This document shows positions 4,668 through 57,210 of a DNA stretch of 64,000 nucleotides, piece after piece. The stretch comes from Salinibacterium hongtaonis (GTDB taxonomy: Bacteria; Actinomycetota; Actinomycetes; Actinomycetales; Microbacteriaceae), in NCBI RefSeq assembly GCF_003065485.1, contig NZ_CP026951.1, forward strand, positions 2,046,001 through 2,110,000, read 5' to 3'. Numbering within the stretch: position 1 is the first letter of the stretch; every line of letters starts with the position of its first letter. The notes under the pieces are model-generated. The model ran no database searches. It was given only the letters and a program-made list of their open reading frames with translations, and had not been told where the DNA came from. Made by a program: the position numbers and the translations under genes.

Positions 4668-4864
4668 GGTGTTATCTCCTTGTGGCGGGCACGGGGCCCG
4701 GTGGTTGTGTGTTCAACTCGAACGCATCGGCAGTTCAAAAGCACTGCAGCGTGAGGAAAGCCCGAAGCCTGCTCGCCGCGTCGATAACGGAGTGCCGTGC
4801 GTCTGCTTTCGCACACGCCCGGCGATCCCTCGCCGAAGTTCAGAGGCAAGTCTACCGTAGGAGG

Positions 4865-53460: not shown

Positions 53461-53568
53461 GGTGTTACTGGGTGGTGCCGGGTGTTACTGGGTGGTGCCG
53501 GGTGTTACTGGGTGGTGCCGGGTGTTACTGGGTGGTGCCGGGTGTTACTGGGTGGTGCCGGGTGTTAC
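53461..53568. repeat. 20-bp tandem array at the nrdF 3' end
   Basis: Five exact copies of ggtgttactgggtggtgccg (53461-53560) are followed by an 8-bp partial copy, ggtgttac, which contains the nrdF stop codon on the minus strand. The array seems to have grown from the nrdF 3' end and would be transcribed as the 3' untranslated tail. Confidence 0.95.
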
Positions 53569-54560
53569 GCCTTGGGGGCAGACGTCGCCTTGGCGTTCGT
53601 CTCGTAGGAGGTGTTGGTCGACTCGAAGAAGTTCACCAATTCGAGGGTGTCGTTCGCGGTCGCCATCCACTTGGCCGGGTTCGAGACCTTGTAGTGCGGC
53701 TCGAAGCCGAGCTCCTCAAGGCGACGGTCAGCCAGGTACTTCACGTACTGGTTGATGTAGTTCGCGTTGAGGCCCAGGATGCCGCCGGGGAGAAGGTCGT
53801 TGTTGTACTCCTCCTCCATCTCGACAGCATCCAAGATCATCTGGCGAATCTCGTCGGCGAACTCGGGCGTCTGCAGCTCGGGGTTCTCTTCGAGCACCGT
53901 GAGGATGAGGTTGATGCCGAACTTGAGGTGCAGGCTCTCGTCGCGAACAACCCAGTCCATGAGCGAACCGAAGTTGCGCAGCAGATTGCGCTGGCGGAAC
54001 GACAGGGCGACCATAAAGCCCGAGTAGAACCAGATGCCCTCAAGCACGACGTTGTAGGCAACGAGGTTGCGCACGAAGTCCTGCTTGCCCTCAAGCGTCG
54101 TAATGTCGAGGGTCTCCTCGGTCATGCGACGGATGAACTTGACCTGGAATTCCTCCTTGCGCGCCATCGACGGGATGTCGACGTGCGCTGCGTAGGCCTT
54201 CTCGCGGTCGATCGGGAACGTCTCGAGCACATACTCGAACGACATGCAGTGGTTGGCTTCTTCCCACATCTGCTTGGCGAGGTAGAGGTGCGCCTCTGCC
54301 GCGTTGAGGTAGGGGTAGACGCCGAAGGCGAGCGCCTTGTTCACGAGCAGCTCGTTCGGGTTGAAGTAGCTCATGAGGAACGTGACGGCGTGGCGCTCTT
54401 CGTCCGTCATCTTCTTGAAGTCGGCGATGTCCTCGCCCAGCTGGATCTCGTTGGGGAACCAGGTGTTGGCGACGGCCTGGTCGTACAGGTCCATTGCCCA
54501 CTGGTACTTGATCGGCTTAAGGAGGAGACCTTCTTGAATTCCGGTTCCGAGGATGCCCAT
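53565..54560 (-). CDS. nrdB: Ribonucleotide reductase small subunit, class Ic-like
   Basis: Metal-cofactor subunit that generates the oxidant for ribonucleotide reduction, 331 aa. Predicted metal ligands are Glu 70 (FNPNELLVNK), Glu 101 and His 104 (WEEANH), Glu 174 (VVLEGIWF), Glu 208 and His 211 (RDESLHLKFG). Spacings equal those of Chlamydia R2 (Glu 89, 120, 193, 227; His 123, 230). The residue four after His 104 is Phe 108, where class Ia/Ib enzymes have the radical Tyr. This and the Glu first ligand are class Ic features (Mn/Fe cofactor in Chlamydia). The flexible C-terminus retains a Tyr (NTSYETN). ATG 54560 lacks a strong Shine-Dalgarno. Confidence 0.92.
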   Translation of the reverse strand: MGILGTGIQEGLLLKPIKYQWAMDLYDQAVANTWFPNEIQLGEDIADFKKMTDEERHAVTFLMSYFNPNELLVNKALAFGVYPYLNAAEAHLYLAKQMWEEANHCMSFEYVLETFPIDREKAYAAHVDIPSMARKEEFQVKFIRRMTEETLDITTLEGKQDFVRNLVAYNVVLEGIWFYSGFMVALSFRQRNLLRNFGSLMDWVVRDESLHLKFGINLILTVLEENPELQTPEFADEIRQMILDAVEMEEEYNNDLLPGGILGLNANYINQYVKYLADRRLEELGFEPHYKVSNPAKWMATANDTLELVNFFESTNTSYETNAKATSAPKA

Positions 54561-54652: not shown

Positions 54653-54727
54653 CTACTGGCAGCTATCGCACTGAAGCTCGTCCATCGGGTCTACGGGCAC
54701 GTAGTACTCATCGGTTCCGTTCATCAT
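54653..54727 (-). CDS. 24-residue CxxC peptide coupled to the reductase large subunit
   Basis: ATG 54727 overlaps the large-subunit stop by ATGA. The 24-codon frame encodes an acidic peptide (…DEYYVPVDPMDELQ…) ending CDSCQ and then TAG. Class I large subunits normally carry such a Cys-x2-Cys or Cys-x4-Cys pair at their own C-terminus, where it re-reduces the active-site disulfide; this large subunit has none. The peptide could therefore be a detached redox tail. Alternatives are -1 frameshifting at the last codon or one missing A in the GAA-TGA junction, either of which would fuse it to the large subunit. It is too short to be confident from coding statistics; position and cysteines carry the argument. 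Confidence 0.68.
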   Translation of the reverse strand: MMNGTDEYYVPVDPMDELQCDSCQ

Positions 54728-57210
54728 TCACCTGCCTTCGGGGCAAGTCCGCCGAAGCCGCGGCGGGCGGGGGCAGCCGCAGCGGGCTGCCCGGCCTCGG
54801 CCGGGGCAGCCGCTGCGGGAGCAGCAGAGCCGAATCCACGCTTGGCGCCCGTCGAGATCTCCTCGGCCTTGTTCACCTTGACGGTGGACTGCTCGGCTTG
54901 GTGACGCGGCTTCATGTGTAGGTAGTAGGTGGTCTTGACGCCACGCTCCCAGGCACCGTAATAGATGTCCATCATCTCGCCGAGGTCGCGAGTCTCCAGG
55001 TACATGTTGCGGCTGATGGCCTGGTCGATCCACTTCTGGGCACGGGCCGCGACCTCAAGGAAGGAGTACGGCGAGAGCTGGAAGCTCGTCTTGTAGACCT
55101 CCTTGAGGTGGTCGGGAATCGACGCAACCCGCGAGATGTCGCCCTGGCTGCGCAGGATGTCCTCGCGAACGCTCTCCCAGAGGCCGAGCTTCTGCAGGTC
55201 GGCCACGAGGTTGCGGTTGACCTCAAGGAACTTGCCGTTGGAGGTCGAGCGGCTGAAGATCTGCGAGAACTGGGGGTCGAGGCCCGGCGTCGTTCCGGCA
55301 ACAAGGCCGATGGATGCGGTGGGGGCGATGGCCATGAGGGTCGCGTTGCGCATTCCGCCCTTGACCTTCTCGCGCATGGCGTCCCAGTCGAGGCGCGTCT
55401 TGCGGTTGACCTTGATCTCAAGACCGCGGTCCTGCTCGGTCAGCGCAATGCTGTCGATCGGCACGAGGCCCTCCGACCAGCGGGATCCCTCGAAGTTCGG
55501 ATAGGAGCCGCGCTCCTGGGCGAGGTCGGCGCTCTCGTCGATCGCCGCGTAGGAGACGTGCTCCATGATCTCGTCGATGAGGTCGTAGGCCTCTTCGCTC
55601 TCGTAGCTGAAGCCGAGGCGCTCGACGATGTCGGTGAAGCCCATGACGCCGAGGCCAACCGCGCGGTTCTGCTGGTTGGAGAAGTCGGCCTCTGCGACGG
55701 ACGACCGGGTGATGTCGATGAGGTTGTCGAGCTGGCGCACCGCGAGGCGGGCGCTCTCTTCGATCTTGGCGAAGTCAATCGACACGGCGCCGGTCTCGCC
55801 GTCGACGAGGAGGTGGCGGCTCAGGTTGATCGAGGCCAGGTTGCAGACGGAGACGTTGTCTTCGTCCTGCGGGAGGGTGATCTCGGTGCACAGGTTCGAG
55901 AGGTGAATCGTGCCCGTGTTGTTGTTGAGGGCACGGTTGTTGATCGTGTCCTTCCAGGTGAGCCACGGGTGGCTGGAGCCCTGCAGGGAGATCAGGATCG
56001 ACTTGAACTGCTCGCGTGCCTTGATCTTCTTGTGCATGCGCATCTCGCCGGCCTCGGCCATCGCGACGTACTCGTTGTAGCGGGCGGAGAAGGCCGCACC
56101 ATAGAGCTCGTTGAGGTCCGTAACCTCGAGCGGGTCGAAGAGGTACCAGTCGCCATCCGTCTGCACGCGCTTCATGAACTCGTCGCTGATCCAGACGGCC
56201 GTGTTGGCGGTGCGGGTGCGGCGGTACGGGTCACCGGAGTTCTGGCGGAGGTCGAGGAACTCGGGGAAGTCGAGGTGCCAGTTCTCCATGTAGAAGCACA
56301 GGGCGCCGAACTTTTTGCCTCCGCGGCTGACCGCGCGCAGAATCGAGTCGATCGTGTGCATGAACGGGATCGGGCCCGTCGACGTGGTGTTGTTGGAGCG
56401 GATGGGCGAGCCCTGGGCGCGCAGCTTGGTCACGGAGAGGCCGATGCCGCCCGTGCCCTTGGTGAGCCACATGACATCGCGCGTGGTCTTGGCGATGTGC
56501 TCCATGTCGTCCTGCATCTCCATGACGAAGCAGTTCGCGAGCTGGGGGTAGATGGTGCCGGCGTTGACGAGGGTAGACCCGGCGGCGAGGTACTCGAGCT
56601 TGGACATCTTGTCGTAGAACGCGATTGCGGCAGCGGTCGGGTCTTGCTCGTTGAGCGACAGACCCATCGCGATGCGCATCCAGAAGTACTGCGGAACCTC
56701 GAGCGCGTCGCCGTTGCGACCCTTGATGCCGTAGCGGTTGTTGAGGGTTACAACACCGATGTACTTGAGCAGGCTGTCGTGGCTGTGGTCGAGGGCAGCA
56801 GAAAGACGGGAGAAGTCGAACAGTTCACCGAGGCGGGGGTCGAGCAGGCCCTCCTCGACGCCGCGACGCACATTCGGCTCAAAGTGCTCAGCGTGCAGGC
56901 TGCGCAGTTCGGCGTCGTCGGAGTAGTCGCCGAGAACGCGCTTATAGATGGTCTTGAGCAGGAGACGCGCGGCGACGGTGTCGAAGGCAGGGTCGTCTTT
57001 GATGTTCTGAAGGGCGACCTGGATGACGGCCTCGTCGAGCTGCTGCGTGGTGATGCCGTCGAAGAGCGTGAGCTCGAGTTCGCTCGCAATCTGGGTCACC
57101 CAGGTGATGTTCTCGTCGAGACCAGCGCTGGCCTCTTCAATCGCCAGGTTGATTTTGTTGGCGTCATACGCCTCACGCTGACCGTTGCGCTTAACTACGG
57201 TGATTGCCAC
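54724..57210 (-). CDS. nrdA: Ribonucleotide reductase large subunit, class I
   Basis: Catalytic subunit that reduces ribonucleoside diphosphates, 828 aa. It has an N-terminal ATP-cone (VVKRNGQREAYDANKINLAIEEA), redox Cys 227 (QLANCFVMEM) and Cys 456 (SVCNLASINLS), the radical site Asn 439-x-Cys 441-x-Glu 443 (SNLCTEITL) and the Tyr-Tyr pair near the C-terminus (TTYYLHMKPR). The last about 55 residues are an Ala/Pro-rich linker with two RRGFGG-like repeats and no cysteine, so the usual redox tail is absent and is encoded in the overlapping short gene. GTG 57210 has GGGAG 6 nt upstream. Confidence 0.94.
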   Translation of the reverse strand: MAITVVKRNGQREAYDANKINLAIEEASAGLDENITWVTQIASELELTLFDGITTQQLDEAVIQVALQNIKDDPAFDTVAARLLLKTIYKRVLGDYSDDAELRSLHAEHFEPNVRRGVEEGLLDPRLGELFDFSRLSAALDHSHDSLLKYIGVVTLNNRYGIKGRNGDALEVPQYFWMRIAMGLSLNEQDPTAAAIAFYDKMSKLEYLAAGSTLVNAGTIYPQLANCFVMEMQDDMEHIAKTTRDVMWLTKGTGGIGLSVTKLRAQGSPIRSNNTTSTGPIPFMHTIDSILRAVSRGGKKFGALCFYMENWHLDFPEFLDLRQNSGDPYRRTRTANTAVWISDEFMKRVQTDGDWYLFDPLEVTDLNELYGAAFSARYNEYVAMAEAGEMRMHKKIKAREQFKSILISLQGSSHPWLTWKDTINNRALNNNTGTIHLSNLCTEITLPQDEDNVSVCNLASINLSRHLLVDGETGAVSIDFAKIEESARLAVRQLDNLIDITRSSVAEADFSNQQNRAVGLGVMGFTDIVERLGFSYESEEAYDLIDEIMEHVSYAAIDESADLAQERGSYPNFEGSRWSEGLVPIDSIALTEQDRGLEIKVNRKTRLDWDAMREKVKGGMRNATLMAIAPTASIGLVAGTTPGLDPQFSQIFSRSTSNGKFLEVNRNLVADLQKLGLWESVREDILRSQGDISRVASIPDHLKEVYKTSFQLSPYSFLEVAARAQKWIDQAISRNMYLETRDLGEMMDIYYGAWERGVKTTYYLHMKPRHQAEQSTVKVNKAEEISTGAKRGFGSAAPAAAAPAEAGQPAAAAPARRGFGGLAPKAGE

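Follow-up and report, generated by a model that had tools for sequence, protein, structure and literature searches.

Part of PMC5704485 describes how class I ribonucleotide reductases (RNRs) are kept active: a flexible tail bears a Cys pair at the C-terminus, which receives electrons from thioredoxin or glutaredoxin, and this tail re-reduces the active site. DTT is able to act on the active site directly, and TCEP, as thioredoxin does, works via the C-terminal Cys (passages in PMC6459318 and PMC12926857). In the split class II RNR of Pseudomonas aeruginosa, NrdJb mediates disulfide exchange for NrdJa, and the authors call the proteobacterial NrdJ split the only one in a non-viral organism (passages in PMC4520616). 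In phages, RNR genes are known to be interrupted by introns, inteins or homing endonucleases (part of PMC3653736). Here we analyse a stretch of 64,000 nucleotides from Salinibacterium hongtaonis (contig NZ_CP026951.1, positions 2,046,001 to 2,110,000; the whole stretch is hereafter the window), in which the gene for the RNR large subunit, nrdA, is followed by a 24-codon frame ending in CDSCQ. A first, sequence-only reading had suggested that the swinging tail of NrdA has become a separate peptide working in trans. Of the explanations considered, this fits the evidence best, with the trans action itself predicted from sequence. We put the probability that the peptide acts in trans, as an independent redox tail for a class I (Ic-like) RNR, at about 0.86. 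Searches of the open-licence PMC literature found no description of a detached class I redox tail.

A short gene ending in CDSCQ overlaps the nrdA stop codon

The features of the junction and of the two RNR subunit genes are as follows.

54653..54727, minus strand: free tail peptide gene, 24 codons, MMNGTDEYYVPVDPMDELQCDSCQ, proposed as a trans-acting RNR redox tail (from the open reading frame list and conservation across Microbacteriaceae)
54659..54670, minus strand: codons for the C-terminal CDSC, Cys20 and Cys23 (from the translation; both Cys in 129/129 unique junctions)
54724..54727, minus strand: ATGA, the peptide start overlapping the nrdA stop (from the sequence)
54724-54722, minus strand: second in-frame ATG of the peptide, forming TGATG (from the sequence)
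54728..54733, minus strand: AGGTGA, Shine-Dalgarno-like, directly 5' of the peptide start (read from the sequence)
54724..57210, minus strand: nrdA, class I RNR large subunit without a C-terminal Cys of its own (Pfam, NCBIfam NF005101)
53565..54560, minus strand: nrdB, small subunit with Phe107 at the radical Tyr position, class Ic-like (Pfam; match to PDB 1syy)

The sequence-only reading had described an Ala/Pro-rich NrdA end free of Cys, and this was confirmed: the only Cys residues of NrdA are 227, 305, 441 and 456, the last 372 of its 828 residues contain none, and the C-terminal Cys pair of class I NrdA is absent from the window protein. The overlap and the CDSCQ-ending short frame that it had reported were likewise found, the final four bases of nrdA being the first four of the peptide frame (ATGA, 54727-54724). 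The AGGTGA preceding the start is presumably complementary to the 3' end of 16S RNA. The peptide gene is separated from nrdB by 92 bases, and a Pfam scan of the 24-residue peptide gave no match over cut-off.

The detached tail is conserved and under protein-level selection

The junction was compared across loci of the family, which its named relatives identify as Microbacteriaceae, each locus coming from another genome. A free peptide with the consensus VPxDPMDxLQC[DE]SCQ-stop was found 3' of nrdA in 114 of 119 loci, made up of 105 parsed in a first pass, including L014 with its altered nrdA frame, and nine of the ten left unparsed by that pass. The linked tail was missing at three loci (L018, L107 and L118), and two more (L015 and L100) are contig ends. 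Two loci from outside the family that were parsed alongside have a fused tail. Locus L107 also carries a long GC-rich inverted repeat between nrdA and nrdB, which was spotted by eye.

Together with added named loci, the family loci yielded 129 unique detached junctions; 30 loci of the initial set, three named loci and three order loci had no anchor and lie outside these 129. Relative to nrdA, the tail is in frame -1 in 112 junctions, 0 in 12 and +1 in 5, and the nrdA stop is TGA in 81, TAA in 34 and TAG in 14. Measured from the start nearest the junction, the peptide is 20-57 residues long (median 26), and it ends in CDSCQ (73), CESCQ (55) or CEACQ (1). The stop/start overlap is widely shared: in 99 of the 129 the peptide begins at position -1 or +2 counted from the nrdA stop, so that the two codons overlap. 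This is the arrangement expected of translational coupling, and suggests that the peptide may be translated by reinitiation.

Selection was estimated from 3000 sampled pairs among the 129 junctions. Over the last 16 codons, pN/pS was 0.25 in the tail frame; the two remaining frames gave 2.2 and 3.4, and the 48 bases after the peptide stop gave 0.96. Information per base drops from 1.0-1.7 to about 0.1 bit past that stop. Counted from the C-terminus, Pro-14, Asp-12, Pro-11, Met-10, Cys-5, Cys-2 and Gln-1 are identical in 129/129. The short frame, whose lack of conservation would have spoken against a separate peptide, is thus conserved in relatives, and these values indicate that it is a real gene under protein-level selection.

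The peptide occurs with NrdA and also in unlinked copies

Among 398 Microbacteriaceae genomes, the peptide was detected in 169/169 with NrdA and in 7/229 without it, at thresholds of E 1e-100 for the NrdA orthologue (169 genomes) and E 0.001 for the peptide (176 genomes). These are plain counts, and as genomes of one genus are not independent, a Fisher value calculated from them is not read as a probability; by genus, 41 of 85 were positive in both the NrdA and the peptide searches.

A peptide profile search revealed a second, unlinked copy in the window genome (G000:C1:217517-217591, MDNDNVSGYDVPVDPMDLLQCDSCQ), with GAGGAGG 5' of its ATG and lying near murB. A similar setting recurs in other genomes: 37 of 40 unlinked chromosomal copies that were fetched have a nearby FAS1-like dehydratase gene, usually followed by murB, and three have no such neighbour. 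This neighbour was recognised by its match to a query in which Pfam identifies a FAS1-like dehydratase region, with the MaoC domain below cut-off. L270 and L271, which are on plasmids, and L277, which is linked to nrdA, are not among the 40, and repeat loci of one place were counted once. Genomes without a linked copy keep one elsewhere, namely G019 (0.93 Mb), G164, G330 and G333, the last of which we take from matching coordinates to be the genome of L197, where the linked copy is missing. G330 also encodes a redoxin-like protein ending in the tail motif. One RNR large subunit was found in G019 and one in G330.

Relatives with a fused tail suggest a single fission

We then searched an order-wide sample of 396 genomes with the tail model, which matched 31 genomes besides its own. 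For 29 of these matches the open frame is 869 aa or longer; the other two lie in frames of 458 aa and of 109 aa (genome G741, locus L333). In 25 of 29 order loci that were fetched, nrdA ends in frame with CPVDPMExLQCESCQ; three had no anchor, and the last is L333. In a phylum-wide sample (396 genomes), there were four matches other than its own: one lies within a frame of 909 aa, and the others are partial and end before the Cys pair. An in-frame fusion of a CDSCQ-type tail in relatives had been named beforehand as evidence against a detached peptide; such fusions do exist in other families of the order, and none was seen among the Microbacteriaceae forms.

In a tree of 44 NrdA cores, 42 Microbacteriaceae forms, none of them fused, lie across a branch with support 100/99 from an outgroup of two fused rows, and the single-fission result depends on these two. 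An earlier tree that included two very distant fused rows (L019 and L020) had saturated branches and did not settle the grouping, and these rows were then dropped. The simplest account of these data would be a single fission no later than the base of Microbacteriaceae.

The partner enzyme is a class I, Ic-like RNR

The window NrdA has the ATP-cone, all-alpha and barrel domains over the Pfam cut-offs (PF03477, PF00317 and PF02867). Against NCBIfam NF005101 it scored 1622 bits (cut-off 988), with model positions 1-802 of 822 aligned. This class I equivalog was thus over its cut-off, and the class II NrdJ models were below theirs. The single PF02867 match in the window genome is the sole RNR large subunit found there. 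Cys227, Cys441 and Cys456 are invariant in 33 aligned rows, and the Tyr-Tyr pair is at 762-763. By analogy to E. coli NrdA, Cys227 and Cys456 are presumed to be the active-site disulfide pair, and the catalytic Cys and Tyr762-763 to match their E. coli counterparts. The closest solved relative of NrdB is PDB 1syy, and its Phe107 aligns with a Phe of 1syy in a column presumably occupied by the radical Tyr in other enzymes. By this Phe, the enzyme is assigned from its sequence to class I, Ic-like; class Ic enzymes are further characterised by an Mn/Fe cofactor. A perfect 20-bp tandem repeat of 5.4 copies (GGTGTTACTGGGTGGTGCCG; window 53461-53568) overlaps the 3' end of nrdB, the last base of the nrdB frame being 53565.

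The Ala/Pro-rich linker at the NrdA C-terminus carries two basic motifs.

54829..54843, minus strand: first KRGFG motif, NrdA residues 790-794 (from the sequence)
54751..54765, minus strand: RRGFG motif near the new NrdA C-terminus, residues 816-820 (conserved across tail-less NrdA ends)

One or two [RK][RK]GF[GA] motifs are present in 129/129 distinct tail-less NrdA ends (a different set from the 129 unique junctions), the last starting 7-23 residues from the end. The peptide has a net charge of -4 or lower in 129/129 unique junctions. Electrostatic docking of the acidic peptide on a basic NrdA motif is possible, and RRGFG may, speculatively, be its docking site. The idea that such a site was invented with the split was weakened, since the motif is shared by 25 of 27 distinct fused NrdA ends.

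Plasmids and phages carry the tail

In 18 genomes searched for extra copies, many copies sit in apparently mobile DNA, as judged mostly by eye from the kinds of neighbouring genes. Pfam identified an integrase-type arm domain in two neighbours (L294 and L295), and in the plasmid record with the L290 peptide an annotated relaxase adjoins (L341). Pfam matched neither of two gene fragments that had looked like relaxases on inspection. The peptide is encoded in 19 plasmid records, 15 from Clavibacter, three from Leifsonia and one from Gryllotalpicola; in five of the 19, where the gene table is incomplete, no feature is annotated at the peptide. One Leifsonia plasmid copy (L334 4983-5084, WP_223361114.1, 33 aa) is named 'ribonucleotide-diphosphate reductase subunit beta' in RefSeq, yet it ends in the free tail motif.

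Four phages were matched at E 0.01 to 0.2, which is individually weak. Three of them, phiPsal1, CN1A and CMP1, have no annotated feature at the peptide, and in Pan2 it is a hypothetical protein. The Pan2 protein (L338 4002-4085, 27 residues, ending CPNDPADLVSCESCQ) comes from a Pseudanabaena phage, recorded from a cyanobacterium outside Microbacteriaceae. In IMG/VR, 218 contigs encode the peptide; 80 were kept, all with one tail ending C-x-x-C-Q-stop. A search of 50 mobile records, made up of eight named ones and 42 of the 80 viral loci, found NrdA in one; two phages are present twice in this set, and many of its contigs are fragments.

The one record with NrdA, a 95-kb phage record (L372), has the gene order tail - nrdA - nrdB. 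Its tail, MAPQNKDNVDGYYVPQDPMDLLQCDSCQ, has AAGGAG 5' of the start, and its nrdA product ends PRKGFGFKSAN and is Cys-free there. Since this tail lies upstream of nrdA, it is out of reach for frameshifting or read-through from nrdA. At the catalytic Cys (window Cys441), the phage nrdA (4110-7517) is interrupted in frame by about 900 bases of intein-like sequence, with Pfam intein-splicing at 33.1 bits against a cut-off of 35.8 and LAGLIDADG also just below cut-off.

Some copies form the C-terminus of small accessory proteins. Two of these, L234 (near 4777-4821) and L291 (reverse strand near 543), are redoxin-like proteins apparently on mobile elements; their own CxxC is degenerate or absent, they end in CDSCQ or CESCQ, and Pfam glutaredoxin matched one at E 0.0089, below cut-off. 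They look similar to NrdH redoxins. Four others (L287, L289, L292 and L304) are proteins of about 93 aa (MSTLIT...) ending in the RNR tail motif; the two that were scanned had no Pfam match over cut-off.

Proposed mechanism

We propose that turnover would leave a disulfide between the active-site Cys of NrdA, and that the free peptide would enter the active site, take over the disulfide with its own CxxC and leave. The oxidised peptide could then be re-reduced by thioredoxin or a similar redoxin; the window genome has six thioredoxin-family places. Termination-reinitiation at ATGA/TGATG is the most likely route of peptide synthesis, and would make peptide supply track NrdA supply. Unlinked chromosomal, plasmid and phage copies may feed the same peptide pool. 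Of these steps, we infer translation, reinitiation, active-site entry and the electron donor. The role in disulfide exchange is suggested by homology to the fused tail and by selection.

We favour a tail acting in trans because the frame, its selection, its varied frames and places, its co-occurrence with NrdA, the fused outgroups and the single fission point the same way. Several observations weigh against it. When NrdA of L004 was modelled with its chain continued past the stop into the peptide, linker and tail came out at pLDDT 24-32 with no docking, so that trans binding is without support from this model, which was built on a shallow alignment of 33 rows. A detached peptide also forfeits the high local concentration of a tethered tail. 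In L333, from another family, nrdA is out of frame in the linker before the tail; this exception may be a frameshift, an error or a second split. Genome G164, which has no linked copy, has two RNR large subunits. Seven genomes have the peptide and no NrdA match at E 1e-100; these are drafts, 77-94% complete, from genera that have NrdA.

Alternative explanations

The enzyme might in fact be fused, with programmed frameshifting or stop-codon read-through joining the tail to NrdA, and -1 frameshifting at the last GAA codon had been offered as an option by the sequence-only reading. The predominance of the -1 frame (112/129) and the common start/stop overlap would suit this, as would the 12 of 129 tails that stand in frame behind a stop. 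However, every frame and every stop codon is represented among the junctions, X-XXY-YYZ heptamers are present in 8 of 129, and RNA structure at the window junction is not unusual (fold z -0.72), so that the fixed frame relation, general slippery site and stimulatory structure expected of programmed -1 frameshifting were not seen. The only copies found in G019, G164, G330 and G333 are unlinked (with the redoxin-like protein as a further carrier in G330), and the tail of phage L372 is upstream of nrdA. Frameshifting at that codon is thus excluded as a general explanation, and we regard recoding of any kind as very unlikely. An error of sequencing or assembly hiding a plain fusion has even less to recommend it. 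The two frames would become one with an extra base at the last GAA codon, and a missing A had been considered for this reason, but the same split recurs with differing frames (112/12/5) at 129 unique junctions in many assemblies, and a stand-alone copy lies elsewhere in the same genome. We consider this explanation excluded for practical purposes.

The peptide could instead have kept the tail motif for some other or additional job in redox chemistry or metal binding, for instance as an RNR inhibitor, decoy or regulator. The many plasmid and phage copies without NrdA (found in one of 50 records) and the copies that end other small proteins are what this would predict. On the other hand, all 129 distinct NrdA ends of the family are tail-less, so that some tail would be needed for turnover by the known route; the peptide co-occurs strictly with NrdA, and the phage operon groups it with nrdA and nrdB. 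We therefore think another job unlikely. Covalent linkage of the peptide to NrdA or NrdB after translation would restore local concentration through a tether, but a gene for a linking enzyme would not fit into the 92 bases that separate the peptide from nrdB here, we know of no such enzyme, and the sole conserved element seen at the NrdA end, [RK][RK]GF[GA], is also present in 25 of 27 fused forms. Such linkage seems highly improbable to us.

Implications

In an entire lineage, a family of soil and water bacteria, the redox tail seems to have been severed from the catalytic chain. If this is true, the swinging-tail step, which has long been inferred, becomes directly testable, as the tail can be added, titrated, mutated or omitted as a separate reagent. 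Further consequences would be a gene of 20-57 codons, probably essential and mostly overlooked by annotation, and a novel construction of an essential enzyme. In phages, the peptide gene is a candidate for a minimal auxiliary metabolic gene. More tentatively, and at somewhat less than even odds in our estimate, the redox tail may be a diffusible, exchangeable peptide common to chromosome, plasmids and phages, with mobile elements carrying this minimal RNR part of about 25 residues to raise or redirect host dNTP supply during their own replication.

Comparison with known systems

To our knowledge, class I RNRs keep the redox tail on the catalytic chain. In yeast, R1 tails reportedly act between subunits. 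The class Ic RNR of Chlamydia trachomatis (1syy) likewise has Phe at the NrdB radical Tyr position, and its NrdA presumably keeps a fused tail. The fused class I NrdA of the same order has the homologous VDPMExLQCESCQ, which is part of NrdA there and a separate gene here. The nrdA gene of Aeromonas phage Aeh1 is said to be split inside its catalytic part. The Aeh1 nrdA-a/nrdA-b pair resembles the present case in that a working class I large subunit consists of two chains; it differs in that the split arose by homing endonuclease insertion in a phage (part of PMC3653736), and neither chain is a free redox tail.

The closest case is NrdJa/NrdJb of Pseudomonas aeruginosa, where, going by passages in PMC4520616, the catalytic chain and the part for thiol-disulfide exchange are also two polypeptides from one operon, and NrdJb, the smaller one, acts on the active site in trans and is required in vivo. 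As in that system, the redox Cys of the Microbacteriaceae enzyme are on the partner instead of the catalytic chain. In contrast, NrdJa/NrdJb is class II and B12-dependent according to the same passages, and here neither a class II catalytic chain nor an NrdJb domain was found; the enzyme is class I with nrdB in the operon, and the partner is a 20-57-residue peptide without a domain match, which is duplicated and present on mobile elements. We class the case as a variant of split RNR, with the class I redox tail as a predicted free peptide.
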